Source: Haloferula helveola | Lineage (GTDB): Bacteria; Verrucomicrobiota; Verrucomicrobiia; Verrucomicrobiales; Akkermansiaceae | DNA length: 64,000 bases | Assembly: GCF_037076345.1 (NCBI RefSeq) | Contig: NZ_AP024702.1 | Coordinates: forward strand, 4,774,001-4,838,000 | Reading direction: 5' to 3' | Shown: positions 12,585 to 58,337 of the stretch, piece after piece | Layout of the letters: every line of letters begins with the position of its first letter | Numbering within the stretch: the first letter of the stretch is position 1 | The notes under the pieces: model-generated | Seen by the model: only the letters and a program-made list of their open reading frames with translations | Database searches by the model: none | Told to the model about the DNA's origin: nothing | Program-made: the position numbers and the translations under genes

Positions 12585-15500
12585 GGGACGGAGGTCTGCG
12601 TGAGAGTGGTCTTGAGTGCGGCGGCGCCCGGCTCTGCCGCGTCGAATGCGAGCACCTTTTCGACGGCGGACTCCGCTTCGTCAAATGCGCGGAGGCCGTG
12701 GCTGGCGAGAGCGATCAGGAGCCAGGCGTCGGCGTCGCGGCGGGACCGGAGATCCTCATCGAAAACCAGCAGATTCGGCAGGCTGGTGGCGAAGTAGTCG
12801 ATCTTGGCCGGCTCCGACAACATGGTCCGCGCGAATTGCCGCATGTCTTCGAACAGTCCGACCGCTTCGTTCTCGCGGCCGAGTTCGATCAGCGAGAGGC
12901 CGCGGTAGTAGGAGAGGGGCGAGTGCTCGGCGACCGCCATCTCCGTAAAGTCTCCGCGCTCGGACGCCGACGCCTCGAAAGCTGCGGTTGCTTCATCCTG
13001 GCGGCCCAGCATCGTGAGGCTGCGTCCCAGCCAGTAGTTGACGTCCGCCTTCGCCTGGAGCGGGTGATAGGCTTCGCCCAAGCTTTCGGGGGTCTCCATG
13101 GCGAGGCCGAACTCCCGGTGGGCGGCCTCGGCGTCTCCTTTGTCCAATGCGGCCTGACCGAGCTTGAGCCGTGCCGTGGTGTATTGCCTGACGACGGAGC
13201 CTTCGCCGCCTTCCCATGGGTGGAACCGGCGTGACAACAGAAGCTGGAGAGCTTTCGCGGGTTGATCCGAAAGATTGAGAAGGGCCGCCAGTTCGACGGT
13301 TGCGTCGTCGCGTCTGAGGACGAGTTCCGAGTGGGCTTCCAAAAAGCGCAGGCGTTCTTCCGGCGGACGGTTCCGCTTGCGGGCCAGTTGGTCGGACTCG
13401 CTGACAAGCCGCGGGTCATCGGGAGCGAGTTCGCGCGCGGTCTTGTAATGAGCGGCAGCCTTCTCGCCGTCGCCTTGGTGGTTCCATATCGCGATTCCGA
13501 GATTGCGATGGACTTGAGGGTTGCGGCTACCGGCATCGGCCGCGGAGCTCCATGCGCGGATGGCGTCGGCGTGACGACGTTTGTCGTAGAGCAGATTCCC
13601 CAGACCGTAAGCCGCAACCGGATCCGGCCCGGGTCGCGAGATTGCCCATTCCAGCACCTTCATCTCTTCGATGCGTGAAGGGAACAGGTGGTCCGGGGAA
13701 GACTCGCGGGCTGCCGTGAGCGTGGCATCGGCATCCGTCGAGGTGGTGCGGTGCTTGAACCACGCGAGCACGTAGGCGGTCATCGTCGTCCGCTCGAGCG
13801 GATTGGGGACGGCGACGGGGGTGGTCTCGGCGGCATGGTGTGCCTCGATCAGCTCGATGGCTTCCGCAAAGAATCCTGCTTCCTCGAAATCAAACGCGAG
13901 GTCGAGAACCGTCTGGGCATCATTGCGGCAAGCGTCTGGAATCCGGATGCCCTTTCCTTCGACGAGTCCTCGCACGACGCGAGCCCAATGGTCGAGGGGA
14001 TCGGAGGCGAGCAGGGGTTCGAGGGTGCGCGTTGCCTCTTCCGATCGTTCCAGCCGGTGCAGGACCAGAGACATGAGAACCTTGGCCTTGTTGTGATCCC
14101 GATTGGTGGCGAGGGAGGCGTCGAGTTGTTCCAGCGCGGAGTTCCAACAGTGGCGGGAGCATTCGATCGTGGCGATCTGGTAGTGTGCACTACTGCGCCA
14201 CTCGTAGTTCCACGCCGCCTTGTGGAGGCAGCGCAACGCGGCCTCGGAGTCGCCAAGGTAGCGCCAAGCGAGTCCGAGATGGTAGTGGGCTTCTCCAGTG
14301 ACGGGGTTCGGGTGGCGGGATGTCAGGCGGCCGACGGCCTCGGTGAGGTGCGCGCGGGCGTTCTCGAACTCGCCGCGAAGCAATGCCCGGCGTCCGAGTG
14401 CGGTCCGGGCTCGGCAATCACCCGGATCCCTCTCGATGGCCTCCAGCCAGTAGGGTTCGGGCTCCCGGGTCGGATGACGGTACTGCTCGAGGTGTTCGCC
14501 GATCAGGTAAAGTTCCTCATTCGTCTTCGCATCGTCCGGAAGGGGCGGCTCGGTCGCCACATCCCTTTCCCGGGACAGCTCCGAAGTGTCGACAGGCCGA
14601 TAAGCGAGCGCCACACGTCCTTCGCTGTCGAGCAGTTCGACCAGAAGCTCCGCCGGATTTTCGCCGGGGAAGCTTAGACCGGAATCCGCTAGCGATTCGC
14701 CGGGGACCAGCTTCACGGGCAGTGTGCCGATCAAGCCGGATGGGGTGGAGAGGCGAAGCTGGCCGTCGAAGGGCTCCGACACGCAGAGGCCAATGGCGAT
14801 GGAGCGGTCTTCCCTGATGTCGAGAGCGAGTGCGGCTTCGTTGTTTGCCTGCTGCACCGGGCCGATGTTCTGGATCGGCCACCACGACTGGGTGAAGGTC
14901 TTGGTTTCGTAAGGTAGAAGATAGGTGAAGTCCGGCTGGTTGTCGGTGTAGATGCCGGCCATCAGCTCAACGTAAGGCCCGCCTTCATCGGTCAGTTCGC
15001 GGTCCCATGCCCAACCGAAGCGGTCGTTGCCCCAGGTCCACTGCTTTTTGCCGGGTGCGATGTGGCGGTCCGCGACGTGGACGAAGCCGCCATTCCTGGC
15101 GAAGTCATAGCCACCGAAGAAATCGAACCGGGTCTGGCAGACCATGTAAGAGGTCGGAACCGGAATGTTGGCATACCACGAGAGATCGTCTGCTCCGGGG
15201 CGCTCGCGATAGTCGATGCCGTAGTAGGGATTTCTGGCGATCGGGAAACTGGACATCGCGCGGACGGCATGGTCCGCGACGTAATGGACGTCCGGGGGGA
15301 AGAAGGACTGGTAGCGGTCGTGAACCTCGGCGGCGACATTGGCCCACCAGAGGAAGGTGTGGGTGTGGGGGGTGCGGTTGTAGAGACGTCCGCGGAGCTC
15401 CACCCGCGAGGAGCCGGGACGCAGGCGGATCCCGTGCATGCCCTTCAGCCGGTTCAGCGGGTCGTGCTCGGACATCCAGATCGTGAACACTCCGTCGCCT

Positions 15501-15913
15501 TCGTCCTCGATGTGGACGTCGGTCGGCATGAACGTGCCGGGCCGGTGGTGCTGCGGCCAGTTGAACTCGACTCCGCCGGAGACCCACGGGCCCGCGAGCC
15601 CGACGAGGGCCGGCTTGATCACGTCCTGACGGTAGAAGAAGTCGTAGTCGTTGTTGGTCTTGTCCTGACCGATCAGAATTCTTCCCCCGATCTCGGGAAG
15701 CATTACGAGACGGACGAAGTCGTTCTCAAGGGTCGCGGCCTGATAAGAGACCGGCACGGATTCGTCGTGCACCTTGTCGATGAAGGGAACCGGATAGACC
15801 TTTCCGGAGCTTCCCTGATAGACGCGGCGCTCGAAGAACATCGGGTTCTTCTCGGGCTCGCCGACCGGATACGTCGGGATGATGCGCGGTTCGATGCGGG
15901 CAATGACGGACAT
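12581..15913 (-). CDS. DUF5107 protein with long TPR region
   Basis: The product is 1110 residues with no signal peptide, so it is probably cytoplasmic. Residues about 1-430 match the DUF5107 type, a galactose-mutarotase-like beta-sandwich (GGRILIGQDKTNNDYDF, HHRPGTFMPTD, RGRLYNRTPHTHTFLWWANV). Residues about 470-1105 are a series of tetratricopeptide repeats (ALGRRALLRGEFENARAHL, HYHLGLAWRYLGDSEAALR). Such proteins are regularly found beside glycosidases, where the N-terminal domain probably binds or epimerises a sugar. The gene lies 6 bases after the symporter stop and overlaps the esterase start by 4 bases. The biochemical activity is not established; the operon context is the main guide. 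Confidence 0.8.
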   Translation of the reverse strand: MSVIARIEPRIIPTYPVGEPEKNPMFFERRVYQGSSGKVYPVPFIDKVHDESVPVSYQAATLENDFVRLVMLPEIGGRILIGQDKTNNDYDFFYRQDVIKPALVGLAGPWVSGGVEFNWPQHHRPGTFMPTDVHIEDEGDGVFTIWMSEHDPLNRLKGMHGIRLRPGSSRVELRGRLYNRTPHTHTFLWWANVAAEVHDRYQSFFPPDVHYVADHAVRAMSSFPIARNPYYGIDYRERPGADDLSWYANIPVPTSYMVCQTRFDFFGGYDFARNGGFVHVADRHIAPGKKQWTWGNDRFGWAWDRELTDEGGPYVELMAGIYTDNQPDFTYLLPYETKTFTQSWWPIQNIGPVQQANNEAALALDIREDRSIAIGLCVSEPFDGQLRLSTPSGLIGTLPVKLVPGESLADSGLSFPGENPAELLVELLDSEGRVALAYRPVDTSELSRERDVATEPPLPDDAKTNEELYLIGEHLEQYRHPTREPEPYWLEAIERDPGDCRARTALGRRALLRGEFENARAHLTEAVGRLTSRHPNPVTGEAHYHLGLAWRYLGDSEAALRCLHKAAWNYEWRSSAHYQIATIECSRHCWNSALEQLDASLATNRDHNKAKVLMSLVLHRLERSEEATRTLEPLLASDPLDHWARVVRGLVEGKGIRIPDACRNDAQTVLDLAFDFEEAGFFAEAIELIEAHHAAETTPVAVPNPLERTTMTAYVLAWFKHRTTSTDADATLTAARESSPDHLFPSRIEEMKVLEWAISRPGPDPVAAYGLGNLLYDKRRHADAIRAWSSAADAGSRNPQVHRNLGIAIWNHQGDGEKAAAHYKTARELAPDDPRLVSESDQLARKRNRPPEERLRFLEAHSELVLRRDDATVELAALLNLSDQPAKALQLLLSRRFHPWEGGEGSVVRQYTTARLKLGQAALDKGDAEAAHREFGLAMETPESLGEAYHPLQAKADVNYWLGRSLTMLGRQDEATAAFEASASERGDFTEMAVAEHSPLSYYRGLSLIELGRENEAVGLFEDMRQFARTMLSEPAKIDYFATSLPNLLVFDEDLRSRRDADAWLLIALASHGLRAFDEAESAVEKVLAFDAAEPGAAALKTTLTQTSVP

Positions 15914-15919
15914 GACGGG

Positions 15920-17497
15920 TCAGCGGAAGATGAGGAACAGGGCCGCAACGGCGGCGATGACCGCGAAGGCGGCGACCTTCACGACCGGTTCGGTGGTCAG
16001 CGCGACGTCCTCGCGTTCGGGCAGGACGCGGGGTTCGTGCAGTGGACGGGCGAGCGTGATCCCGATCATCACCGCGAACACGACCCCGAAGGCGCAGAGG
16101 ACCTGGGTGAGGAAATGCATTTCGAACCACGGTTCGCCGAGGATGCCTGCGAACAGTCCCTGTTTGGTGGCGATCTGGAAGAAGGAGTAGGCGAAGGGGC
16201 CGAGGACGAGTGCGACAAAGCCGGCTTGCGACGGAGCTCGCGGGAGTAGGAAGGCTCCGAGGAACGCGGCAACCACACCGGGCCAGATGAAGCCTTGGAA
16301 TTGCTGGATGAATCCGAAGACGCCGTCGGTGAGCAGCGGAGCTGAGATGCAGCCGATGATGACGAAAACGACCGTCAGAATCCGTCCGAGCATGACGATC
16401 CGGGACTGGCTGGCCTTCGGGTTGATCAGGCGCTGGTAGAGGTCGATGGAGGCAATCGTCGATGAAGAGTTCAGCAACGACGCGAGGGTCGAAACGATCG
16501 CTCCCGCGATCGCGGCGAAGATGAAACCGCGGAGTCCCGGGCCGACGAGTTGCTTGATCAGGGTTGGGTAGGCGCCGTCCGCCTTGTCGGCGATTTCCTC
16601 GGGGAAGAGGTTCGCTGCCATGATCCCGGGCATCACGATTGCGAACGGAACCAGCAGCCACAGCGCGCCGGCGAAGATCATTCCGAGTTGCCCGTCGCGG
16701 AGTGTCTTTGCCGCGAGATTCCGCTGAACGATGAACTGGTTCAGTCCGCAGTAGTAGACCATCACGATCCACATGCTGCTGAAGACCGTGTGCCATGGCA
16801 GGTCCTTGTAGCCGGGATGACCTTCGAAGAGCAGGAGTTTGAGTTTGTCGGCATTCGCGGTCGAAAAGTCGGCCCAGCCGCCCGAGGCATTGAGACCGAG
16901 GAAGAAGACGATCATGCCTCCCGCAAGCAGCGCGATGCCTTGGATCAGGTCGGCGTATGCGATCGCCTTCAGCCCGCCGGTTGCGGCGTAGAGGGTGCCG
17001 ATCGCCCCGATGATCCAGACGCCGCTGCCCATCGGGATTCCGACGAGGATCTTGAGGGCGGTGGCGCCGGTGTACAACACCGCGGTGAGGAGGACTCCGA
17101 CGTAGATCACGACGGTGATCAGGGCCATCACGCTGCGCGTTGCCTTGTCGTAGCGATACTCGAGGAACTCCGGCATCGTGTAGATGCCCGCGCGCAGGAA
17201 CTTCGGAAGCAGGGTGATCGCGACGAGCGCGATGAAAACCGAGCCCATCAGCTGCCAAGCCGCTACGGCCAGTCCCTGGCTGGCGGCACCGGCGCCGGCC
17301 ATGCCGACCATCTGCTCGGACGAGATATTCGCGGCGACGATGGAAATCCCAATCACCGGCCAGCTCAGCGAGCGGCCTCCGAGGAAGTAGGAGGATTCGT
17401 CCTCGGTCGTGCCTTGGGTCCTTCGGCTTTTCCACAGGGAAAAGCCGATGACGATCAGGAAGAAGAGAACGAAGGTTGAAATGGTCAGGGTTTCCAC
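15920..17497 (-). CDS. Sodium:solute symporter (SSS family), probable sugar transporter
   Basis: The product is 525 residues and highly hydrophobic with about 13 membrane helices, typical of SSS/SGLT transporters. The segment YFLGGRSLSWPVIGISIVAAN followed by SSEQMVGMAG is the conserved TM1-2 region around the sodium and substrate site. It is the first gene of the six-gene glycosidase run, so it most likely imports the monosaccharide or small oligosaccharide released by the two GH2 enzymes. A 139-base spacer separates it from the divergent DUF2891 gene and should contain the operon promoter. The real substrate cannot be read from sequence. Confidence 0.92.
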   Translation of the reverse strand: METLTISTFVLFFLIVIGFSLWKSRRTQGTTEDESSYFLGGRSLSWPVIGISIVAANISSEQMVGMAGAGAASQGLAVAAWQLMGSVFIALVAITLLPKFLRAGIYTMPEFLEYRYDKATRSVMALITVVIYVGVLLTAVLYTGATALKILVGIPMGSGVWIIGAIGTLYAATGGLKAIAYADLIQGIALLAGGMIVFFLGLNASGGWADFSTANADKLKLLLFEGHPGYKDLPWHTVFSSMWIVMVYYCGLNQFIVQRNLAAKTLRDGQLGMIFAGALWLLVPFAIVMPGIMAANLFPEEIADKADGAYPTLIKQLVGPGLRGFIFAAIAGAIVSTLASLLNSSSTIASIDLYQRLINPKASQSRIVMLGRILTVVFVIIGCISAPLLTDGVFGFIQQFQGFIWPGVVAAFLGAFLLPRAPSQAGFVALVLGPFAYSFFQIATKQGLFAGILGEPWFEMHFLTQVLCAFGVVFAVMIGITLARPLHEPRVLPEREDVALTTEPVVKVAAFAVIAAVAALFLIFR

Positions 17498-47677: not shown

Positions 47678-48748
47678 TCAAAAAGTGAATCCCACGCCGA
47701 ACCCGGCGCTCCAACCCGAGAGGTCGATCTTGAACGTCGTCGGTCCCGCGGAGCCGTCGAGCGACTCGTTCCAGTCGTAGCGGAAGAATGCCTCGATGCT
47801 CCACTGGTCGGTGAAGCGGTATCGGCCGCTGGTCTTCAGGTAGGCGCCGAGAAGGAAGTCATCGCCGCTCGAACGCGCTCCGTAGGTCGAGAGGGCGACC
47901 GTGGCAGGATCGATCAGGCGGGCGGACCAGCCGGCGTCCCACTCGGCGTAGTTGAGCACGAGGCCCGCGCCGAAGCCGATGTAGCAGCGGTCGGTCGGAA
48001 GCCAGTGCGCCTCGCCGCCAAGGGCGAGGCTGTAGAGGTCGGTGGAGCTGTCGAATGCGTAGCTGCCGCCCCCGCCGGCTGGAGTTAGTACGGTGGTTCT
48101 AGTAGTTGGTTGGTTGCCGATGAGAGGTCCGGGGCCGGCGAAGGTTCCCATGTAGCCGGCCAAGGGCGGGATCACGCCGTTCAACGCGTAGCTGTCGACC
48201 GTCGAAGCGTCGGAAAGGGCCATCGGGCTCGCGGTTCGGCCGTCGAGACTGACAAAGGAGAAATTCGCGGTGGGTCCGATCAGGAGATCGGCCCGTATGG
48301 GTTGCAGGTAGCTGACCTCGATGTAGGGGGCCGCTTCGGCGTCGGCATCGTCCGATCCCGGACCTGGAGCCGAGAGTCCAAGTCCACCGCTTGCCGTGTA
48401 GGTCAGATTGCCTCCGCCGACCTGTGACGCATTCTGATATCCCCAGAAGGTCGTCAGTCCGGTGCCGGGTGTGGCCGCGCCTTGGTTGACGTAGCCGTCG
48501 TCATAGGTGCGATCGGCGTTCGCGTTGGCGGGGCCAGCCGCCGGGTCGGGGACGAACAGATTGCCTGCGAAGCGGCCGTTGGCGAGGTCCGGGCTGACCG
48601 AAAGATCGCCGATGTTGCGCCACATCACGCCGGTGCCGATGCGCCAAGGGCTGATCTCGGCGGGCGGTTCGATCGGGCTCTTCGGGGAGGCTGGACCCGC
48701 AAAGGCGGGAGTCGCCGGAAGGAGGGCAAATAGGAGGCGTGCAGTCAC
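47678..48748 (-). CDS. Outer-membrane beta-barrel protein, last gene of the tail-collar operon
   Basis: The product is 356 residues from GTG 48748, which overlaps the stop of the giant repeat protein as GTGA. The start opens a signal peptide (VTARLLFALLPATPAFAG). An alternative upstream start lies entirely inside the preceding gene. The mature part alternates aromatic and polar residues in strand-like blocks (GLVLNYAEWDAGWSARL, YRFTDQWSIEAFFRYDW), and the protein ends WSAGFGVGFTF with the terminal Phe typical of proteins inserted by the BAM complex. It is probably an outer-membrane channel or anchor for the secreted proteins of this operon. The family is not assigned. Confidence 0.75.
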   Translation of the reverse strand: MTARLLFALLPATPAFAGPASPKSPIEPPAEISPWRIGTGVMWRNIGDLSVSPDLANGRFAGNLFVPDPAAGPANANADRTYDDGYVNQGAATPGTGLTTFWGYQNASQVGGGNLTYTASGGLGLSAPGPGSDDADAEAAPYIEVSYLQPIRADLLIGPTANFSFVSLDGRTASPMALSDASTVDSYALNGVIPPLAGYMGTFAGPGPLIGNQPTTRTTVLTPAGGGGSYAFDSSTDLYSLALGGEAHWLPTDRCYIGFGAGLVLNYAEWDAGWSARLIDPATVALSTYGARSSGDDFLLGAYLKTSGRYRFTDQWSIEAFFRYDWNESLDGSAGPTTFKIDLSGWSAGFGVGFTF

Positions 48749-51700
48749 TCGGAGGACGGTGTTGGAGGGGTGATCAGGACGAAGCGGTAGAACCGGCTGC
48801 CCACCGTGGACGGGTGGCTTACGGTCTTCGGTGGCCCGTTGTCGATCCACTGGAGGCGGTTGGCGACTGCGGTCACGGCCGGCACGACGCGGACCCATGT
48901 GGTCATGTCGGCGCTGTACTCGACCGCGTAAGTCGAGCCCGGCGTGCTGACGATCTCGATCAACTGGTCGCCATTCGGGAGGCGTTCGTTGCGTGCCACA
49001 GCGAGGCCGGCGGGGGCCGCAGTCGGATCAGGCTCGGGGATGGGAAGCAGTTCGATCTCGTACTGCGGAGTGAATCCGGGGTCGAGAGACGCCCGGAAGA
49101 ACTCGATGCTGAGCGTCACGCTGTCCGACGCCGCGAGGGGCTGATTGTGGAGAACGAAGGGCAGCTCGCTTGGCGGAGTGCCGAAAGTCCGCGAGCCGGT
49201 CGCATTGTGGACCTCCACATCCGCCGGAAGGTTCTTCACGTAGAGCCGGAAGGCGGGGATGGCTTCGCTGTTGTTGTTGGTCACCGTGACTTCGCTGACG
49301 AATAGCCCGCTCTGCAGGTTGACGGTGGGCGCGACGGTGATTCCGGTGCCGGTATCCGCCGCGCTGATGATCGAAGTGGCAGCGGAAGCAGAGTCGTTTG
49401 AAGTCTCGGACTGTGACTCCGTAATGGAGCTCACCACAGCGGTGAGCGGGATGACGTCGGTGCCGCTCGACGCGCCGGACCCTGCTTGGGCGGTGATGAT
49501 CAGGGACGCGCTGCCTGCCGCGGGAAGGTCCCCGATCGTCCAAGTGCCTCCGGCAACCGTGCCGGACGCGGTGTCGAAGTTGGTGAAGCTGACGTCTGCC
49601 GGGAGGACGCCTGGCAGTGAAATCGCGACACCGCTGGCGTCGCTCGGGCCGTTGTTGGTCACCAGAACCCGGAAGGTTTCAAGAGCGTCCCCACCGGCGA
49701 CCAAAGGATCCTGTAGAACCTCGATGGAGGGCACGATGTCGACTTCGCGGACGACCGAGGTCGCCACCGTCGCCGACTCGTCGCCGGTGTTGATCTGCGG
49801 CTGGTCAAGGGACTGGGCGGTGAGGGTCGACGAGACGGCGTCGACGGCGGCGGTTGCTGCGGCATCGACTCCGTAGTCGACCTCGAGCGTGACGCTGGCG
49901 CCAATGGCGAGGGTCGGGATGGTCCACTGCGCCGCGCCGGGGCCTTGATCGGTCACGGTGCCGCTTTCGGGTGTGATGCCGGAGGCGCTGATTCCCGTCG
50001 TCTCCGTGAAGCTCAGGCTCAGCACGATGTTGGTCGCCTCGATCGGCCCGTTGTTGGTGACCGTGAACTCGTGGGTGAGATTCGGAAGGGGAACGTTCCC
50101 GGCGGTGACGGGGTCGACCGATTCCGCAGCGGTTACGACGAGGTCGAGACCCGCAAGAATCGTGATGACCTGTTGGCAGCTGCCCTCGTTGCCGCTGGCG
50201 TCGGTGCCGCGCCAGGTACGGGTGAGGATGGAATCGACGCCATTCGGAGCGGGTGCCGTGGCATCGCTGAAGGTGACGACCGGATTGGGATCGCACGTGT
50301 CCGTGGCCGTTGCGAAGCCGGTATCAGCCGGGGTGGTGGGCTCGGTGCTGAGGACCGAGACATCCGGAGGACACACGACCACCGGATCGGTGGTGTCCTG
50401 AACCGTGATCGTCTGGGTGCAATTGCTTGAGTTGCCCGAGGCGTCGGTGGCCGTCCACGTACGAGTGATGGTGAAATTGTAGGCGTTCGATCCGGCCGTG
50501 ATGTTGTCGCTGAAGGTGATCGCCGGGTCCGGGTCGCAGGCATCGGTCGCGGTGGCGGTTCCCGTGTTGGACGGGTCTTCGGACTCGTCGCACTCGATCA
50601 TGGTGTCCGCCGGGCAGGTGATCACCGGTGCGGTGGTGTCCTGGACGGTGATCGTCTGGTCGCAACTGCTGGCATTGCCCGTGGCGTCGGTGGCGGTCCA
50701 GGTGCGGGTGATGGTGAAGTTGTAGGCGTTCGAGCCGGCCGTGATGTTGTCGCTGAAGGTGATCGTCGGATTCGGATCACAGCCATCGATGGCGGTGGCG
50801 GATCCGGTATTCGCGGGAGCTTCGGATTCGTCGCACTCGATGGTGGTGTCCGCAGGGCAGGTGATGGCCGGCGCGGTGGTGTCCTGAACGGTGATCGTCT
50901 GGTCGCAACTGCTGGCATTGCCCGTGGCGTCGGTGGCGGTCCACGTGCGGGTGATGGTGAAGTTGTAGGCGTTGGAGCCGGCCGTGATGTTGTCGCTGAA
51001 GGTGATGGCCGGGTTCGGATCGCAGTTGTCGGTCGCGGTGGCGGATCCCGTATTCGACGGGTCCTCGGAATCATCGCACTCGATGGTGATACCCGCCGGG
51101 CAGGTGATCACCGGTGCGGTGGTGTCCTGAACGGTGATGGTTTGCTGGCAAGAGCTCTGGTTCCCGGACGCATCCATGGCGGTCCACGTCCGGACGATCG
51201 TGAAGTTGTCGGCGTTGGATCCGGGAATGGTGGAGTCGGCGAACCCGAGCACGGGATTCGGATCAAGATCGTCGATGGCGGTCGCGAATCCGGTGGCAGA
51301 CGGGTCGGTGGGCTGATCGCACTCGACGGTGATGCCGGGCGGGCAGGTGATGGCCGGCGGGGTGTTGTCGACGACGCTCAGCGTGTCGGTGGCTGTGCCG
51401 CTGTTGCCTCGTGACGAGGTCAAATCGCCACTGGTATTGACGAGATCACCGAGGGCCATGGCGGTCACATCGACCGTCACGGTGCAACTGGCTCCGGCGG
51501 CGACGCTTCCGCCGGTGTAAGAGATCACGCCGGTTCCCGATGTCGCGGTCAGGGTGCCGCCGGTGCAGGTGGTCGACGCGTTGGCGGGAGTGGCGACCGT
51601 CATCCCGGCTGGGAGATTGTCGGTGAAATCGATGGCGGTCGCGTCGAGCGGACTCAGAGAGTTGTCGATGGTGAACGTCAGGGTCGAGGTTCCGCCGAAA

Positions 51701-52788
51701 GCGATGCTGGCGGGCGAGAACTCCTTCGAGAAAAGGGGAGGCGGAGCGACGGTCAGCGTGTCGCTGGCGGGGCCGCTGTTGCCGATCGAGCTGGTCAGGT
51801 CGCCGCTGGTGTTGAGGTAGCTGCCGGGGGTTGAGGAGGTCACGTCTACGGTGACGGTGCAGGAGGTGCCGGCGGGGACGGTCCCTCCTGTGTAGGAGAC
51901 GGTGCCCGTCTCCGATACCGCAGTCAGGGTTCCGCCGACGCAGGTCGTCGAGGCATTGGCCGGGGTTGCGATCACGACGCCTGACGGAAGGTTGTCCGTG
52001 AAGTCGACCGAGGTCGCGGCCACCGGATTGGCGGTGTTGTCGATGGTGAAGGTGAGCGTGGAAATCCCGTCTTCGCCGATGACATCGGGCGCGAAGTTTT
52101 TGGCGAAGCCGGGGGGAGTGAGGATTTCGACATCGAAGGTCGAAAGGGTCGGTACCGCGACGGCGGCCAGTGATGGCTCCATCCCTGAGAGCGGCTGGTC
52201 GAATACCTGGTTGCCCACCAGCGAAATCGTGTAGGTGCCGTTGTCCGAAGGGTCCCAGCTTCCTCCAGGTGGTGTCAGGGTATAGCTGCCGGACAGGAGG
52301 GCGGCGTCGGGGCCCGAGGCGGTGCCGCTGGTCACGGGGACGGGACCGTTGGGGCCGGTGACGACCACGTCGTTGGCGTCGATCGAGTCGGCGTCGACCA
52401 CGGTGAAAACGCCGTCGTCCCGATAATCAATCCGGAAGCTGTAGACGGTGGCGCCGGCGGACGTGACCGACGGTGTGGACCCGCCGAAGACCGTCGGTGG
52501 AGTATTTACGAAGCCGTCGACAATGGTCGCATCGGTTGCTCCCGGTTCGGCCGGGTCGTCGGTCACGGTGTTGCTCTGGCCCGTGGCGGCAATCGTTGCC
52601 TGCTGGGAGATCTCGAAGGTGCCGTCGGCATTGATGCCGGTGGGTGTGCCGTTGACGGTCGTGGTGTAAACGATCTGGACCTGCTTGCCGGCGGGCAGCG
52701 ACGGGATCGTGACGTCGAGGTTGCCCTGGGCGTGGAGCGGTCCTGCGAAGAGCGCGAGGATCGGGAGAACGGTGCGGGGGAGAAACAT
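48745..52788 (-). CDS. 1347-residue surface protein with HYR-like and DUF11-like repeats
   Basis: The protein begins with a signal peptide (MFLPRTVLPILALFAGPLHA). Order: an N-terminal beta domain (about 20-240); two repeats (about 250-480) sharing TLTFTIDN, VDFTDNLP and PANASTTCxGGTLTA; five HYR-like repeats (about 480-890) built from ITCPAxxTIECDxSE, DPNPAITFSDNIT and RTWTATDATGNxSSC; then two DUF11-like domains (LTHEFTVTNNGPIEATNI, LVTNNGPSDASGVAIS); and a C-terminal domain (about 1230-1347) with WVRVVPAVTAVANRLQW. Cysteines pair in the HYR-like units (TCP...ECD, CDPNP...SSC). It is an adhesin-like or fibre protein. It overlaps the DUF6916-like gene by 1 base and the beta-barrel gene by 4 bases. 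Confidence 0.85.
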   Translation of the reverse strand: MFLPRTVLPILALFAGPLHAQGNLDVTIPSLPAGKQVQIVYTTTVNGTPTGINADGTFEISQQATIAATGQSNTVTDDPAEPGATDATIVDGFVNTPPTVFGGSTPSVTSAGATVYSFRIDYRDDGVFTVVDADSIDANDVVVTGPNGPVPVTSGTASGPDAALLSGSYTLTPPGGSWDPSDNGTYTISLVGNQVFDQPLSGMEPSLAAVAVPTLSTFDVEILTPPGFAKNFAPDVIGEDGISTLTFTIDNTANPVAATSVDFTDNLPSGVVIATPANASTTCVGGTLTAVSETGTVSYTGGTVPAGTSCTVTVDVTSSTPGSYLNTSGDLTSSIGNSGPASDTLTVAPPPLFSKEFSPASIAFGGTSTLTFTIDNSLSPLDATAIDFTDNLPAGMTVATPANASTTCTGGTLTATSGTGVISYTGGSVAAGASCTVTVDVTAMALGDLVNTSGDLTSSRGNSGTATDTLSVVDNTPPAITCPPGITVECDQPTDPSATGFATAIDDLDPNPVLGFADSTIPGSNADNFTIVRTWTAMDASGNQSSCQQTITVQDTTAPVITCPAGITIECDDSEDPSNTGSATATDNCDPNPAITFSDNITAGSNAYNFTITRTWTATDATGNASSCDQTITVQDTTAPAITCPADTTIECDESEAPANTGSATAIDGCDPNPTITFSDNITAGSNAYNFTITRTWTATDATGNASSCDQTITVQDTTAPVITCPADTMIECDESEDPSNTGTATATDACDPDPAITFSDNITAGSNAYNFTITRTWTATDASGNSSNCTQTITVQDTTDPVVVCPPDVSVLSTEPTTPADTGFATATDTCDPNPVVTFSDATAPAPNGVDSILTRTWRGTDASGNEGSCQQVITILAGLDLVVTAAESVDPVTAGNVPLPNLTHEFTVTNNGPIEATNIVLSLSFTETTGISASGITPESGTVTDQGPGAAQWTIPTLAIGASVTLEVDYGVDAAATAAVDAVSSTLTAQSLDQPQINTGDESATVATSVVREVDIVPSIEVLQDPLVAGGDALETFRVLVTNNGPSDASGVAISLPGVLPADVSFTNFDTASGTVAGGTWTIGDLPAAGSASLIITAQAGSGASSGTDVIPLTAVVSSITESQSETSNDSASAATSIISAADTGTGITVAPTVNLQSGLFVSEVTVTNNNSEAIPAFRLYVKNLPADVEVHNATGSRTFGTPPSELPFVLHNQPLAASDSVTLSIEFFRASLDPGFTPQYEIELLPIPEPDPTAAPAGLAVARNERLPNGDQLIEIVSTPGSTYAVEYSADMTTWVRVVPAVTAVANRLQWIDNGPPKTVSHPSTVGSRFYRFVLITPPTPSSE
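50150..51360 (-). repeat. Five HYR-like repeats of about 243 bp, three nearly identical
   Basis: The repeats code for about 81 residues each; the period is 243 bases (GTCCTGAACGGTGATCG-type sequence recurs at 50637 and 50880). Units 2-4 are nearly identical at DNA level, while units 1 and 5 are diverged. That pattern is expected from recent unequal exchange in the centre of the array. It is in frame throughout. Confidence 0.85.
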
Positions 52789-53087
52789 CAGTTGAAAATG
52801 GCCTGGAGGGTGGTGTGCCCGTCGTCGCCGGCGATCGGAACGAGGAAGATGCTGACCGGCTCGGCAAGCGAGGGGTGCCGGATCTCGTAGATGCCCTGCG
52901 GGAGTTGCGGGGCGTCGACTTGCAGGAGGAATGAAAACGGCGGGCGATCCGCCTCGGGATTGTGCGACGGCAGTGGGGTGAGTTCGTTGAGGGTGGCAGT
53001 GAATTCCGCGTCCGCGCTCCGCAACTCGACCTGCTGGCTGGCAAGCGGCTCGAAGGTTTCGCGAGTGATCGGGGGGTGCACGGTCAT
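52788..53087 (-). CDS. DUF6916-like small protein
   Basis: The product is 99 residues, without signal peptide. Its pattern (ETFEPLASQQVELRS, RPPFSFLLQVDAPQLPQGIYEIRHP, VSIFLVPIAGDDGHTTLQAIFN) matches DUF6916, small beta proteins that I recall encoded beside tail-collar/MdpB-type genes. The final phrase GxxTxxAIFN is particularly characteristic. It overlaps the giant repeat gene by 1 base and follows the twin-arginine-led gene after 6 bases. The function is unknown; its association with tail-collar genes suggests a chaperone, cap or adaptor role. Confidence 0.7.
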   Translation of the reverse strand: MTVHPPITRETFEPLASQQVELRSADAEFTATLNELTPLPSHNPEADRPPFSFLLQVDAPQLPQGIYEIRHPSLAEPVSIFLVPIAGDDGHTTLQAIFN

Positions 53088-53093
53088 TTCGGA

Positions 53094-53489
53094 TCAGGCG
53101 ATCTGGAGCGGCGTGCCGTGAAGGCGGGCGAAGTCGCGCGGCAGGAGTAGCCGGACGATGTAGTCGGTACCGGAGTGGCGGAAATAGAGTGCATCGCCAT
53201 CCGCACGGATTTCGGTGTCGGGCAAGGCGGCCTGCCTTCGGGATGGGTCGAGAAAGGCGTCGAAGTCGTCGATCGATGCCGCGGCCCGGACCGTGCGGCC
53301 CTTTCCTTCGGTAACGTCCTCGATGATCACCTGCGGGAAGAGCCCGGTCAGCGAGTGGAGGGTGCGGCGCTCTTGTGTGGCGAGAACGAAGCGTGCGGTC
53401 GCATGGAAGCCGGCTCCGGCGAGCAGGGTTCCAACTCCGGTGGCGAATATGTTGCGGCCGAAGCGGCGGCGGTTGAGTGGGTCGGACAT
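53094..53489 (-). CDS. Small protein with twin-arginine-like leader, tail-collar operon
   Basis: The product is 131 residues from ATG 53489 (MSDPLNRRRFGRNIFATGVG). The leader NRRRFGRNIFATGVGTLLAGAG resembles a Tat signal, an arginine pair followed by a hydrophobic helix, though the consensus SRRxFLK is only partly met. The mature part (TLHSLTGLFPQVIIEDVTEG, LYFRHSGTDYIVRLLLP) shows no known family. It lies in the tight run of the tail-collar operon, 4 bases after the GNAT gene and 6 bases before the DUF6916-like gene. Function is unknown; Tat export would mean that it folds, perhaps with a cofactor, before leaving the cytoplasm. Confidence 0.6.
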   Translation of the reverse strand: MSDPLNRRRFGRNIFATGVGTLLAGAGFHATARFVLATQERRTLHSLTGLFPQVIIEDVTEGKGRTVRAAASIDDFDAFLDPSRRQAALPDTEIRADGDALYFRHSGTDYIVRLLLPRDFARLHGTPLQIA

Positions 53490-53493
53490 GGAC

Positions 53494-53994
53494 TCAGGCG
53501 GGGCTGGGGATGGGGGCGCGTTCGAGCAGGAGGTAAACGCCATGCTCGTCGATCTTGCGGAAGCCGAGACGCTGGTAGAGGGACTGGGCGGGGTTGTTTT
53601 GCTCAACGTGGATGCGCACGCACTTGCCGCGGCTGCCGGCGAGGTCGAGCACGTCCCGCATGACCGAACCGCCGATGCCTTGGCCGCGGTGTTCCGGCAG
53701 CAGGGAGATGTCGATCACCCGGATCTCGTCTTCCCGTTCTTCCAGATAGAGGCGCCCGACGTCTTTTTCCTGTTCGGCGAGGATGGTGAATCCGTCGTTG
53801 TTGAAGTGTTTGCTGTAGTGATCGCTCTGCGCCTCGAACTGCTGGTCGAGGAAGGCGTCGATCCGCTCTTGCGGCCAGCCGGTCACCGCGAGTTCGTCCT
53901 GGCGCGTGCTGTGGTAGAGCAGACGCAGGAATTCCCGGTCGGCCGGCGTGACCGGACGGGAGGCGAGTTCGGGGTGGCTGAAGCGGAACTCCAT
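53494..53994 (-). CDS. GNAT-family N-acetyltransferase, tail-collar operon
   Basis: The product is 166 residues from ATG 53994. GNAT motif A is visible as ISLLPEHRGQGIGGSVM (the R-G-Q-G-I-G acetyl-CoA loop), motif B as CVRIHVEQNNPAQSLYQRLGF, and a final strand HGVYLLLER. It is a complete small acetyltransferase without a signal peptide. The ATG overlaps the stop of the third tail-collar gene by 1 base, and the next gene follows after 4 bases. A modifying enzyme inside an operon of surface fibre proteins may act on one of them before export; no substrate can be read from the sequence. Confidence 0.9.
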   Translation of the reverse strand: MEFRFSHPELASRPVTPADREFLRLLYHSTRQDELAVTGWPQERIDAFLDQQFEAQSDHYSKHFNNDGFTILAEQEKDVGRLYLEEREDEIRVIDISLLPEHRGQGIGGSVMRDVLDLAGSRGKCVRIHVEQNNPAQSLYQRLGFRKIDEHGVYLLLERAPIPSPA

Positions 53995-54518
53995 CAACTG
54001 CGTGAGGGATAGATGCCGGTGAGGGCGATGATGTAATTCACCACGATGAAAGGCTGCAGGTTGTTGTGCGCCTGGCCACCGCCGGTGGCTTGGAGGTCGG
54101 CTTGCTTGGCGAGGGAAGTCGGCGGACCGAGGTAGGTCTTCGATCGTTGCGGTCTTCCCGGCGTTCGGTTCTCCGGCTGCGGCGAACCTTCCTCATCGGC
54201 CCGGGCGCTGGAGATCCGGTAGCCATGGTTGTGGGTGGGCATCTGGGCCCCGGTGAGCGTGACCGTCGATTGCCCCGTTTGTTGGCCGAGGGCGCGCGGG
54301 GTGAGACCCGGCCCGTTGCCGGGATGCATCGGCGCCCGTCCCTGGAGGTTCGGCAGCGCGCAGGTGGTCCGTCCGTCGCCACCGTAGGTCGTTCCGATCA
54401 GCGAGAAGAGCGCGGTGTTCTGGGAGATCGGCAGCAGCTGGCCGTCGCAGAGGGCCCAGCCTCGCGGGGCGAAGTTTCCGGCGAAGATCTTGATTTCGGC
54501 AATGAAGGGTTCGGACAT
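53994..54518 (-). CDS. Tail-collar (MdpB-like) protein, third copy
   Basis: The product is 174 residues. The N-terminal tail-collar signature is APRGWALCDGQLLPISQNTALF and IGTTYGGDGRTTCALPNLQGR; the C-terminus has the family pattern GGGQAHNNLQPFIVVNYIIALTGIYPSRS. The middle (about 95-140) is variable and Gly/Pro/Arg-rich and holds MPTHNHGY. Phage proteins of this fold form trimeric receptor-binding tips; bacterial MdpB-like proteins carry the same domain without a phage. The C-terminus ends in PSR(S/T/N) as in the two sister genes. It overlaps the GNAT gene by 1 base. Confidence 0.9.
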   Translation of the reverse strand: MSEPFIAEIKIFAGNFAPRGWALCDGQLLPISQNTALFSLIGTTYGGDGRTTCALPNLQGRAPMHPGNGPGLTPRALGQQTGQSTVTLTGAQMPTHNHGYRISSARADEEGSPQPENRTPGRPQRSKTYLGPPTSLAKQADLQATGGGQAHNNLQPFIVVNYIIALTGIYPSRS

Positions 54519-54521
54519 GGC

Positions 54522-55040
54522 TCAGGTGCGGCTGGGGTAGATGCCGACGAGGGCAATGATGAAGTTCACGCAGAGGGAGGGCATCAGGTTGTCGTGCGAC
54601 TGGCTGCCCCCTGTGTTGGTGACGGCGGCGGAGTTCAGCGATGTGTCCGGGGCGTCGTCGATGTAGAGATCATGACCCGGTCGTGCCGGGACCGCGCCGA
54701 CCGGCACCGTGGTCTCGGCGTTATCCGGACAGTGGACGGCCCCGCCGTGGGTGTGGGACGGGAGCTGATTGACGGTGAGGGTGACGCTTTGTGCGCCGCC
54801 CTTGCTTCCGATGTTGCGGTTGGTCAGCCCGGGGCCGGAACCGTAGTGAACCGGCAGCCGACCGCGAAGATCGGGAAGACCGAAGGTCGTCCTGCCATCA
54901 CCGCCGTAGATCGTTCCGAGCAGCGAGAAAAGCGCGTCGTTCTGTGAGATCGAGAGCAGCTGCCCGTCGCAGAGGGCGTAGCCGCGCGGCGCGAAGTTGC
55001 CCGCGAACATCTTGATTTCTCCAACGTAGGGCTCGGACAT
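54522..55040 (-). CDS. Tail-collar (MdpB-like) protein, second copy
   Basis: The product is 172 residues. It shares the opening MSEPYVGEIKMFAGNFAPRG with the third copy, then CDGQLLSISQNDALFSLLGT and YGGDGRTTFGLPDLRGRLPVH. The variable middle contains SHTHGGAV and a Pro/Ala-rich stretch. The end is GGSQSHDNLMPSLCVNFIIA plus LVGIYPSRT. The constant N- and C-terminal parts against a variable centre suggest that the three copies form related subunits or a heterotrimer. It lies 3 bases before the third copy and 4 bases after the first. Confidence 0.9.
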   Translation of the reverse strand: MSEPYVGEIKMFAGNFAPRGYALCDGQLLSISQNDALFSLLGTIYGGDGRTTFGLPDLRGRLPVHYGSGPGLTNRNIGSKGGAQSVTLTVNQLPSHTHGGAVHCPDNAETTVPVGAVPARPGHDLYIDDAPDTSLNSAAVTNTGGSQSHDNLMPSLCVNFIIALVGIYPSRT

Positions 55041-55044
55041 GGGA

Positions 55045-55548
55045 TCAGTTGCGTGAGGGGAAGAGGCCCTGCAGCGCGATGCAGAAGTTGATCGCGATAT
55101 AGGGCTGCATGTTGTTGTGGGCCTGACCTCCGCCCACGGTGGTGAGGGTCCCTGCGGCGGGGGCGACGGTGGTCGTGGGCGCGTGATAGATCGGATCCGA
55201 CGACTTCGCGAAAAGGACGCCCGAGTCCGGCTGGCCGGTCGATGCCGGGGAAGTCGAAGCCATCAGCTCGTGGGTGTGCGCGGGCATCTCGGTGGCGTTG
55301 AGAGTGTGGACTTCCTCGCCACCCTTCTGGCCGAGGGTGAATCCGGCTCCTTCGTGAACGGGCACGCGGCCGCGGAGGTCGGGCAGGGCGAAGGTGGTTC
55401 TACCATCCCCGCCGTACGTCGTGCCGAGCAGCGAGTAGAGCGACTGGTTCTGGTTGATCGGCAGGATCTGCCCGTCGCACTGGGCGAAGCCGCGAGGTGG
55501 GAAGTTGAATCCGACGACCCGGATTTCTGCGAGAAATGGTTCGGACAT
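55045..55548 (-). CDS. Tail-collar (MdpB-like) protein, first copy
   Basis: The product is 167 residues from ATG 55548 (MSEPFLAEIRVVGFNFPPRG). An upstream in-frame extension lies inside the beta-helix gene and is not plausible. It has the shared signature CDGQILPINQNQSLYSLLGT and YGGDGRTTFALPDLRGRVPVH, the His pair MPAHTHELM, and the end GGGQAHNNMQPYIAINFCIA plus LQGLFPSRN. It is the most diverged of the three copies in the N-terminal strand. It follows the beta-helix gene after 5 bases. The whole set is typical of Xanthomonas-type MdpB triplets, to my memory, but no function of these has been settled. Confidence 0.9.
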   Translation of the reverse strand: MSEPFLAEIRVVGFNFPPRGFAQCDGQILPINQNQSLYSLLGTTYGGDGRTTFALPDLRGRVPVHEGAGFTLGQKGGEEVHTLNATEMPAHTHELMASTSPASTGQPDSGVLFAKSSDPIYHAPTTTVAPAAGTLTTVGGGQAHNNMQPYIAINFCIALQGLFPSRN

Positions 55549-55553
55549 GGAGA

Positions 55554-58337
55554 TCAGGGGGTTGGAAGGAGGGGGCGCGGGCAGGGCGGGGCGGAGAAAA
55601 TGAGACTGGTGCCCGGCGGTCCGGGTGCGGTGGTCTGGATGGCCGCGCCGCCGTTCTCGCTCGAGAGGTTGGGCGAAGGACCGGCCGGATCGGCTTGCGT
55701 AACCGAGGCGATCGGCCCCAGCGCGGTCCCGAGGTTGATGTCGATCGTGTCGGTCACTGCCAGCAACGGATTGTCGATATTGGCGCAAAGCGTCGTGAAG
55801 TCCCGGAGCCGGAGACCGATGGTGTCCGGGCCGGTGCTGCTGATGTCGTTGTTGATGAGGGTCAGATTGGTCGTTGCCCCCGGTCCGGGGAGGTCCTGGT
55901 CGGAGAAAAGGCGGAAGCCCTCCTCGTCGGTCCCGCTGATGGTGCAGTCGGCGACCTCGAGGGTCAGTGTGCCGCCGTTGTCGCGCGTCCTCGCGTAGAT
56001 CCCCCGCAGCAGGTTCGAGGCGGATCCGGCGCTCGGGCTGAGGTTGTTGTTCGAGACCAGGACCTGCCACAGGCCTCCGCTGTCCTTCCGCACGGCGATT
56101 CCGTCTCCGAGGAGGAAGGGAACCGGCTGGGTGGCGGTGATCGTGTTGCCGGAAATCGACGCGTTGACGTTTTGCGTAGCACCCAGAGCCCCGTCGAGAC
56201 TGATGCCCTCGCCGGTGATGTCGCTCAGCACGTTTCCGGTAATAAAAGCGGTCAGCGCTCCCGTGCCGGAAGCCGTCGCCGAGATCCCTCCGCCCCCGAG
56301 CGAGTCGTCAATGCCACCGCCGTTGGTGCTGGTGCATCCGGTGATCGAGAGCTGGCAGGGGGAAAAGCTGTCGTGCTCGAACCGGACCGCCTGGCCTTCG
56401 AGTTGGTCGAAGGTCACGCCGTTGACCGCGAGATTCACCGCAGCGCCCGCGTTGGCTTCGACGTGGATGCCGAACAGGCCGAAGGTCGGGTTGCCGGCGG
56501 TGAAGCTCGACGAGCCGTTCACCGTGGCGATGAGGCTGTCCGACTCATTGTGGATCACCAAGCCGCTGGAGACGATGCCGCTGACCGAGATGTTCTGGAT
56601 GTCGAGTGTGCCGGTCACCGAGGAGGTGCCGCTGCCGTCGGTGTTGTCGAAGTCGATCGCGTGGAGCCCCGGAGCCGGAATGGTTCCGATGTTGGAATAA
56701 TTTCCGTGGCGGAAGGACAGGTTCGAACAGGCGTTACGGCCGTGGACCGCGCTGCCACCGGTGTTCTGGATATTGAGCTGCGCGACCGACAGTCCGCCGG
56801 CGGCTGACAGGACGATGCCGTCGTTGACGGTGTTGGCGAGCGTGCCGCCGGATCCGTTCGCCGAGTTGCTGCCGTCGCCGGTGATCGAAAACGTCCCGGT
56901 GGTAGTGTCGAGATCGATGCCGCGGTCGGCGCCATCCACACTCACGCGGTCGAGAGCGAGCCCGAGGGCGGAGTTGTCGATGTCGACCGCGACCGCGTCG
57001 GCGGTGGAAAGTGTGCCGCTCGTCGAAGCGATACTTGTGCAGTTGCTGGCGAAGATTCCGACGGCTCCGGCGTTGGTCTGCGGAGCGGTCGTCGACAGGT
57101 CGAGATCCGCCAGCGCCACCGGTGCGGTGCAGTTGGTCAGCCTCATACCGTTGTTGAGGAAATTCGCGATGCTTGTGCCGGTGGACACCGTGAGGCCGCT
57201 GCCCGCCACCGAACTGAGCGAGATGCCGGTGCCGCAATCGACCGAGTCGAGGCGGGTGATCCCGGTGGTGGCGTTGAGCGTTCCGTTGCTCAGATCGAGG
57301 ATCCCGCCGGTGCCGCTCGTGCTGAAGTCCGAGAGCGTCAGGGTTCCGAATGAAGAGCCGGAGATCGCGTTGGTGGCGGGCGGGATGTTGCCTACGGAGA
57401 GCCCGCGCACCGTATTGTTGGTGGCCAACAGGATGGCATTCGATGCGCCGGTGATGACCGGCGGGGCGCCGGGGGCGGGGAGGCCGGTCGAATAGGTGGC
57501 GAGTGCGAAGCCGAGGTTGCCGCTGCTGAGAGCGACGCCTTGGCCGAGGAGCACCTGAGAGGCTCGCAAAGAGAATGGCCCCAGGGTGGCGCCGCTGCCT
57601 GAGAAAACGTAGATCGCATGACCGTCTCCCGGATTGCCCGCAGCTCCGTTGTTCCGAGCGGCGAAGGCGGCAGCCGAGTTGAACGGGTTGGCCGCGGTGC
57701 CTGCCGTGGCGTCGTCCGGGGTGGCGTCGAGATCGTTCACGAACCAAACAGGCGAGCCGACATTCAGCGTGACGACACCCGGGCTCAGTCCGACGAGGTT
57801 CTGGGCGTCGCGGACCTTGTAAGTGAAACTGTCGGTGCCGGTGAATCCCGTCGGGGGAGTGTAGGTGAAAGAGCCGTCGGGCGCGACCGCGACCGTGCCG
57901 CCCTGCGTGCTCGAACTGTCGAAGCTTTCGACAGCGAGCCCCGGACTCACGCCGCCGTCGGGATCGAGGTCATTCACCAGCACACCGACGCCAGCCGGCA
58001 CGCTGATGCCGATGTTGCCCGTCACCGCGTAGGTTTCATCGATGCCGATCGGCCCGACCATCACCGCGCCGAGCGTGGCATTCCCGTCGATCGTGTCGGT
58101 CACCCGGACATTGTTGGCATCCGAGCCGGAATTGTTCAGCCGGATGTCGTAGTCGATATCCTCTCCCGGGCTGGCGACGCCGTTGCTGTTGGTGTCGTCG
58201 AGATCCGCGGTTTGGGTGCCCGACACCGCAGGGCCTTGGGCGAAGACTGTGACTGGCAGGATCAGTATCGCGAAGCGGGCGACAACGGATGCATTCAGAC
58301 GGGGCCGTGGGATCGGAGAAAACTGGGGAGAGGGCAT
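55554..58337 (-). CDS. Surface protein with Ig/cadherin-like and beta-helix repeats, first gene of the tail-collar operon
   Basis: The product is 927 residues from ATG 58337. The N-terminus carries an Arg/Asn-rich segment then a hydrophobic stretch (FAILILPVTVFAQGP), a signal peptide. Residues about 30-85 are DUF11-like; about 85-190 are an Ig/cadherin-like domain with VLVNDLDPDGGVSPG and GSFTYTPPTGFTGTDSFTYKV. From about 270 onward a long run of parallel beta-helix-type rungs follows (TNNTVRGLSVGN, GILDLSNGTLNATTGI, ISGTDEEGFRLFSD), the fold of phage tailspikes and adhesins. It is the first gene of the operon; the 333-base region upstream should contain the promoter. Confidence 0.8.
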   Translation of the reverse strand: MPSPQFSPIPRPRLNASVVARFAILILPVTVFAQGPAVSGTQTADLDDTNSNGVASPGEDIDYDIRLNNSGSDANNVRVTDTIDGNATLGAVMVGPIGIDETYAVTGNIGISVPAGVGVLVNDLDPDGGVSPGLAVESFDSSSTQGGTVAVAPDGSFTYTPPTGFTGTDSFTYKVRDAQNLVGLSPGVVTLNVGSPVWFVNDLDATPDDATAGTAANPFNSAAAFAARNNGAAGNPGDGHAIYVFSGSGATLGPFSLRASQVLLGQGVALSSGNLGFALATYSTGLPAPGAPPVITGASNAILLATNNTVRGLSVGNIPPATNAISGSSFGTLTLSDFSTSGTGGILDLSNGTLNATTGITRLDSVDCGTGISLSSVAGSGLTVSTGTSIANFLNNGMRLTNCTAPVALADLDLSTTAPQTNAGAVGIFASNCTSIASTSGTLSTADAVAVDIDNSALGLALDRVSVDGADRGIDLDTTTGTFSITGDGSNSANGSGGTLANTVNDGIVLSAAGGLSVAQLNIQNTGGSAVHGRNACSNLSFRHGNYSNIGTIPAPGLHAIDFDNTDGSGTSSVTGTLDIQNISVSGIVSSGLVIHNESDSLIATVNGSSSFTAGNPTFGLFGIHVEANAGAAVNLAVNGVTFDQLEGQAVRFEHDSFSPCQLSITGCTSTNGGGIDDSLGGGGISATASGTGALTAFITGNVLSDITGEGISLDGALGATQNVNASISGNTITATQPVPFLLGDGIAVRKDSGGLWQVLVSNNNLSPSAGSASNLLRGIYARTRDNGGTLTLEVADCTISGTDEEGFRLFSDQDLPGPGATTNLTLINNDISSTGPDTIGLRLRDFTTLCANIDNPLLAVTDTIDINLGTALGPIASVTQADPAGPSPNLSSENGGAAIQTTAPGPPGTSLIFSAPPCPRPLLPTP

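Follow-up and report, generated by a model that had tools for sequence, protein, structure and literature searches.

The operon and its genes

The window analysed here, that is, the whole stretch of 64,000 nucleotides at positions 4,774,001 to 4,838,000 of contig NZ_AP024702.1, comes from the genome of Haloferula helveola (5.68 Mb in a single contig), and it carries nine open reading frames (ORFs) that run on the minus strand from position 58337 down to 47678. Three of them encode proteins with the collar domain of phage tail fibres. The nine genes form a real operon and look like the local edition of a bacterial locus that recurs outside phages in many phyla, as an initial annotation of the DNA had supposed for the genes as a unit. 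The best conserved core of this locus consists of three distinct collars, a GNAT acetyltransferase and a DUF6916 protein, accompanied by a giant protein and often by a small protein led by a twin-arginine (Tat) signal. The main ground for excluding a chance grouping is that this core recurs in unrelated genomes; a scan for sigma-70 promoters returned no sites, and terminators were at chance level.

The first gene (55554..58337) encodes a giant of 927 amino acids (aa) with a hydrophobic N-terminal leader, seen by eye, an Ig/cadherin-like domain, a beta-helix-like domain (residues 471-893, window positions 56927-55659) and a Cys-Pro-rich C-terminal tail. Three collars follow, none with a visible signal peptide: collar 1 (class A, see below; 167 aa, 55045..55548, starting MSEPF), collar 2 (class B, 172 aa, 54522..55040, MSEPY) and collar 3 (class C, 174 aa, 53994..54518, MSEPF). 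Next come the GNAT acetyltransferase, a candidate modifier of the collar N-termini (53494..53994, with an ATG at 53994 and a TTG one codon earlier), the Tat-led small protein (53094..53489), the 99-aa DUF6916 protein, in which no signal peptide was seen (52788..53087), a second giant of 1347 aa (48745..52788) and a 356-aa putative outer-membrane barrel with a GTG start at 48748 (47678..48748). Frames, order and spacing agree with the initial annotation: gaps are of 3-6 bases, the third collar gene overlaps the acetyltransferase gene and the DUF6916 gene that of the second giant by one base each, and the second giant and the barrel overlap by four.

Pfam matches bear out the named families, with the three collars assigned to Collar (PF07484; E 1.4e-27 to 1.5e-29, 95.8-102.2 bits against a cut-off of 24), the 99-aa protein to DUF6916 (PF21880; E 6.3e-20, 71.5 bits against a cut-off of 27), the acetyltransferase to Acetyltransf_1 (E 2.2e-12) and the 1347-aa giant to DUF7933, DUF11, HYR_4C and HYR. 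The twin-arginine motif of the small protein, RRRFGR, followed by a hydrophobic stretch, was also found by eye (MSDPLNRRRFGRNIFATGVGTLLAGAG). The barrel-like and the Tat-led proteins matched no Pfam or PHROG model, and neither had a relative in 115 loci (E 1e-4 for the barrel), so that the identification of the last gene product as an outer-membrane barrel is unconfirmed and the protein seems to be a local extra. The nearest flanking genes with matches encode a metallo-hydrolase and an SNF2 helicase.

Distribution of the locus

We scanned contigs for collar loci with the class B collar as query and kept the best 80 of at least 585 relatives. At least three collar ORFs were present in 61 of these 80 loci, a frequency that is biased upward, the loci being the best class B matches. 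Within 4 kb, a GNAT gene was found in 59 loci, DUF6916 in 50, both in 48 and neither in 19, a strong association (Fisher p 7e-9), and 58 loci had an ORF of at least 700 aa, although genes were called by a simple ORF rule and such large frames may include false ones. Three or more collars together with GNAT occur in nine NCBI phyla in this set and additionally in Deinococcota and in the window's phylum, which makes a total of 10-11, as Kiritimatiellota is placed by the genome search in the window's phylum. With DUF6916 as a further requirement, 43 of the 80 loci remain, from seven phyla or eight with the window's own, and 32 of these 43 have the large ORF as well.

Other samples agree with this picture. 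Eight of nine annotated plasmid loci (Ruegeria, Deinococcus, Paenibacillus, Azospirillum, Sinorhizobium, Aminobacter, Comamonas and Pontibrevibacter) have three adjacent genes named 'tail fiber protein' with GNAT adjoining or one gene away, while the ninth, from Hymenobacter, has one such gene. A giant adjoins the triplet in seven of the eight, Azospirillum having peptide-modification genes, and a local profile detected DUF6916 in six of the nine (not in Deinococcus, Paenibacillus or Hymenobacter). In a separate draw of Pseudomonadota, DUF6916 was found in 36 of 299 genomes, and the genes are not scattered: 38 of the 41 DUF6916 sites in these 36 genomes have a collar within 6 kb (three collars at 25 sites, two at 3 and one at 10). 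Collars occur in 63 of 247 Bacteroidota genomes, where 40 collar loci had GNAT and DUF6916 both (7) or neither (33), and never one alone. One locus belongs to this set as L235 and to the set of 80 as L129, and it was counted under both names in the N-terminus test described below.

In the window's phylum a collar is encoded in 28 and DUF6916 in 7 of 194 genomes, and in its genus collars are found in 10 of 18 genomes; this patchy presence indicates that the locus comes and goes. A locus of the same genus (L276) comprises a Tat-led DUF6916, a plain DUF6916, GNAT, collars A, B and C and a beta-helix giant. A single genome, of Sulfidibacter corallicola (G200), holds five separate collar triplets.

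Three classes of collar

A tree was built from 203 collars of 68 loci including the window, 4 of 207 having been left out by length, and classes A, B and C were defined as clades of at least ten members that are at least 85% pure for gene position. Class and gene order are therefore partly circular; into the shuffle test only the position label enters. Along the tree, position switches 23 times, compared with a mean of 97.9 and never fewer than 86 in 200 shuffles within loci. Among the 52 fully classed loci, 51 hold A, B and C (47 as ABC, two as BAC, one as BCA and one as AABBCC), the single exception being CCC (L114); 22 of the 203 collars are unclassed, which leaves 16 of the 68 loci without a full class set, and two entries in the tree, L046 and L113, both unclassed, are one genomic locus. 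The window collars were themselves among the sequences building the class profiles with which they score best. Identity is 58.2% within a class across loci, 50.9% between paralogues of the same locus and 49.3% between classes, and the higher value within classes implies that the three-way split preceded much of the dispersal among phyla. By these comparisons the collars are three old, distinct and non-interchangeable paralogues, a point that goes beyond the initial annotation, as does the idea that the acetyltransferase may act on their N-termini.

The collar profile matches phage tail fibres including gp12 of T4, and His96, His98 and His149 are invariant in 65 aligned collars. The phage collar fold is a trimer. 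Moreover, we found 12 frames with several collar domains, nine with three and three with two, and two of the three double-domain frames (both in G296) adjoin a further collar frame. Given the trimeric phage fold, the classes and the fusions, an A:B:C heterotrimer is the simplest reading, and we regard it as likely that the collars form one. Three genomes or contigs of the window's genus (G754, G757:C5 and G758) have frames of ~1,000-1,150 aa that are natural fusions, a single chain holding three collar domains.

Acetyltransferase, DUF6916 and signals for export

The presence of GNAT was compared with the start of the collars in 136 loci, of which 11 had no defined GNAT state (L113 was left out). 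Collars mostly start with Met-Ser/Ala/Thr/Gly/Cys in 79 of 80 loci with GNAT and in 7 of 45 without it; in the remaining loci without GNAT they mostly start with Met-Glu/Asp or carry leaders. A locus of the window's own genus, L280, illustrates the latter state, with no GNAT in flanks of 1.5 and 6.9 kb and starts of MYEP, MEPF and MEPF. Supported independent contrasts numbered three (one in an earlier version of the test), of which two or three point in the expected direction depending on the pairing and none in the opposite one, a result that is not significant. N-terminal acetyltransferases are among the solved chains closest to the window GNAT (4.6e-7). Because GNAT is coupled with Ser/Ala N-termini, these sequence data suggest that it may acetylate the collars at their N-termini.

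Leaders were detected by a simple hydrophobicity rule and by eye, and the counts are too low, as the rule missed those of L248 and L259. A signal-like leader was seen on none of 218 collars in loci with GNAT and on 13 of 99 in loci lacking both GNAT and DUF6916, with one of these 13 calls (L236) looking false. L111 and L150 have such leaders on every one of their three collars, and single collars carry one in L144, L266, L267 and L271; cleavage in L111 and L150 would leave Ser-Glu-Pro-Phe or a near variant, the very N-terminus of the window collars after removal of Met. Tat-like leaders are present on collars of L248, L259, L263 and L264, and in L248 the leader is complete on only one of the three. 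The Sec- or Tat-like signals on collars of relatives thus point to a destination outside the cell. A pfam07484 protein of Ruegeria pomeroyi, from a triplet or otherwise, has been detected in the exoproteome (PMC4949626); PMC4949707 contained no match to collar terms.

Of 81 loci, 27 have a Tat-like small ORF near the collars; 18 of these ORFs are copies of DUF6916, and part of the remainder is probably spurious. Near collars there are 27 in 539 kb, compared with 10 in 788 kb outside. TatC is encoded in the host genome (E 1.8e-62). The Tat-led protein of the window was considered as a diverged DUF6916 and this found no support, as it reaches E 0.24 with the DUF6916 profile and 5.5 bits with the Tat-led profile, the latter probably from the signal; it may nevertheless play the same part as the Tat-led DUF6916 of relatives. 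Judging from these leaders, export of the collars through Tat is conceivable and rather doubtful. The DUF6916 model (pLDDT 92.5) is a short helix with six strands, in which no solved fold could be recognised with confidence (Foldseek E 0.03 at best), the matches being scattered over a diffocin baseplate chain, PilZ proteins, cellulose synthase and phage connectors.

Giant proteins beside the collars

In many loci the giant directly upstream of the collars contains a region of ~410 residues marked by asparagine-ladder repeats, and a Cys-Pro tail often closes this region. A profile built from 16 such regions matches 25 loci (the 16 seeds and 9 others), so that the window giant (E 6.2e-37) shares its domain with the giants of 24 further collar loci, including 8 that contributed no seed to the profile; in L012, L129, L140 and L143 the region is internal and not terminal. 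Ten of 19 whole genomes or records, all chosen for their collar loci, had a match to the profile, and in nine of these ten it lay only at the collar locus. Neither Pfam nor PHROGs has a model that matches the domain, and among solved structures its profile finds, up to E 0.01, chains of glycoside hydrolase family 110 and nothing else (best 1.6e-4). The description of the 927-aa giant as a beta-helix protein therefore holds as far as residues 471-893 fall within this recurring beta-helix-like domain, while no Pfam helix model matches the protein.

Giants at five other loci carry an autotransporter barrel in two cases (Ruegeria and Sinorhizobium), SLH domains in one (Paenibacillus) and neither in two, and collar domains are fused to giants with hydrophobic leaders in L047 and L048. 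By eye, the ends of giants are LPXTG-like in L139, PEP-CTERM-like in L135 and type IX-like in L129. Taken together, the pairing of collars with a giant protein of the Ig or beta-helix type resembles a fibre system. This much of the earlier proposal of a single fibre machine stands; the roles it gave to the last two genes found no support. When the 1347-aa HYR giant, the supposed stalk, was compared with the 927-aa giant and with 366 ORFs of at least 500 aa from the 115 loci, only its DUF7933 stretch matched, in collar-side giants of Ruegeria and Tritonibacter. The barrel, the supposed anchor, has no relatives in these loci, and three of the five giants scanned elsewhere bring an anchor of their own.

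Discussion

We consider it fairly probable that the locus encodes a fibre, either secreted or on the cell surface, that recurs among bacteria and derives from a phage tail-tip fold by domestication; a surface fibre is, in our view, slightly more probable than not. The A, B and C collars would combine into one heterotrimeric head, as suggested by the three classes, the fused frames and the trimer that phage collars form, and this head would be displayed on or with the giant, the co-occurrence of the two being observed and their contact inferred. The window collars, having no signal peptide, probably fold in the cytoplasm, where the neighbouring GNAT may acetylate their N-termini, as its coupling with Ser/Ala starts suggests; export might then be helped by DUF6916 and the Tat-led small partner, in line with the Tat- or Sec-like signals on collars of relatives. 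By analogy with phage collars, one may guess that the target of the head is a glycan on a surface or a cell nearby. That all the components belong to a single particle is likewise something we infer. A far more specific version can be formulated, namely an undescribed surface appendage of many phyla with an obligate A:B:C heterotrimer that folds and is acetylated in the cytoplasm, leaves folded through Tat by riding on one partner with a Tat signal (a Tat-led DUF6916, the small protein, or one of the collars as in L248), and docks on a giant stalk at its beta-helix and Cys-Pro tail, the stalk being anchored differently from phylum to phylum; as a whole, this version is unlikely to be right in every part.

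Several observations weigh against the fibre. Besides the bias in the triplet frequency, 23 of the 80 loci have less than 3 kb of flank on one side. Ten of the 38 collar-linked DUF6916 sites have a single collar only, and triplets with GNAT occur without DUF6916 in 2 Bacillota loci and in 5 of 6 Acidobacteriota loci, so neither part is obligatory. As for the heterotrimer, the domains of fused collars do not fall into the three classes, and the monomer model, made from a larger alignment than that of DUF6916, is poor (pLDDT 63); a poor monomer may fit an obligate intertwined trimer, other causes being possible. Ser starts exist without GNAT (the 7 of 45 loci above, e.g. L098 and L244), L283 of the window's genus has GNAT and yet a MEPF start with Glu, and three Bacteroidota loci with GNAT have one Met-Asp collar each. 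Many loci, finally, have no visible Tat partner, and Sulfidibacter has three matches to the beta-helix domain far from its five triplets.

If the genes were co-regulated and otherwise separate, the collars would be a self-contained secreted or cytoplasmic complex, with giants, GNAT and DUF6916 acting independently; the differences among giants from phylum to phylum, their absence from view at some loci (the large ORF is seen in 58 of 80) and the varying gene order and strand would all fit. Against it stand the beta-helix domain, which is confined to the collar locus in nine of ten genomes or records, the fusions in L047 and L048 and the tight coupling of GNAT with DUF6916, and we judge this alternative rather improbable. 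Phage tailspikes pair helices with fibre heads, and the family 110 glycoside hydrolases are the only solved relatives of the beta-helix profile, which could suggest a secreted glycan-processing device with the giant as a tailspike-like binder or cutter of glycans and the collar head as its binding module. Since other loci have Ig, autotransporter or SLH proteins as their giants, we find such a device quite unlikely.

A decayed prophage tail-fibre module persisting beside surface genes would explain why the collars are phage-type by both Pfam and PHROGs, and 22 of 80 collar loci on viral contigs do have at least three collar ORFs. The window frames are intact, however, the gene set recurs across phyla, no phage gene adjoins the operon among its nearest flanks, and the window's DUF6916, Tat-led protein and beta-helix giant have no PHROG match. 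For 59 triplet loci we compared up to four nearest ORFs of 100-700 aa per locus, 148 in total: the 25 of 88 PHROG families listed included none for a terminase, a portal or a tail protein, while in favour of a remnant a single neighbouring ORF matched each of two endolysin families, and the Pfam matches were mostly to ordinary metabolic and regulatory families (among 25 of 195 listed). DUF6916 was found in one of the 80 viral collar loci (L161) compared with 50 of the best 80 bacterial ones, and GNAT in two viral loci; the viral loci L155-L164 are mostly on short contigs that may be bacterial. We therefore set the phage remnant aside as highly improbable on the strength of the neighbours (the window flanks and the PHROG families listed) and of the recurrence. 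A group of viral loci (L175-L183, L188, L190 and L191) shares one layout with three tandem collars of ~230 aa, and phages too may use heteromeric collars.

With T4 short tail fibre gp12 and other phage collars of PF07484, the window-type collars share the fold, as judged by profile, and the conserved HxH histidines; the gp12 head is said to have been described by Thomassen in 2003 as a trimeric metal-binding fold. They differ in having three non-interchangeable subunits in place of one, in having no phage beside the window operon, and in having GNAT, DUF6916 and giant bacterial proteins as neighbours. Tailocins, extracellular contractile injection systems and type VI secretion are domesticated phage tail parts as well; no match to a sheath, tube, spike or baseplate was found in the window operon or its nearest flanks. 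Three of the five giants scanned beside triplets are autotransporter or SLH-anchored Ig-repeat proteins, and proteins of this kind are not known to have a heteromeric collar head as a separate part. Bacterial collar proteins outside phages have precedents, among them MrpB of Microcystis, which is encoded in a non-phage operon, and the rhiABCD operon of Rhizobium, which has the LuxR-type regulator RhiR beside it. The latter operon resembles the present locus in its collar gene: RhiB, a collar-domain protein that may act in plant interaction, is its only collar, as opposed to three here, RhiA and RhiC have no Pfam domain, and the portion of the description consulted mentions no triplet, GNAT or DUF6916 (PMC13133039).

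A full-text literature search, with subscription journals and bioRxiv outside its scope, found no description of the gene set and no paper mentioning DUF6916. The novelty is the assembly, the families being already named except for the beta-helix domain. If the proposed fibre is real, bacteria of many phyla have domesticated the tips of phage fibres into a heteromeric head, DUF6916 gains a first candidate role, and many bacterial genes labelled 'tail fiber protein' are explained. The A/B/C rule, N-terminal acetylation and Tat export can each be tested directly.

Other genes at collar loci

On the Azospirillum oryzae plasmid (L069:322-6731 and 10237-16543), the collars are surrounded by genes for a lasso-peptide B2 protein, a PqqD-type chaperone, asparagine synthetase and 2OG oxygenases. 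Genes like those of this modification cluster were recognised by eye in L014, L140, L147 and L153, and sulfotransferase-like proteins occur at other collar loci, as though a modified peptide belonged with the collars. A conserved protein of ~430 aa is found in eight alphaproteobacterial loci (L066:9126-10343, and L071, L075, L080, L082, L084, L087 and L091), and in L066 and L071 it sits between the collars and GNAT, which makes it a possible further component.

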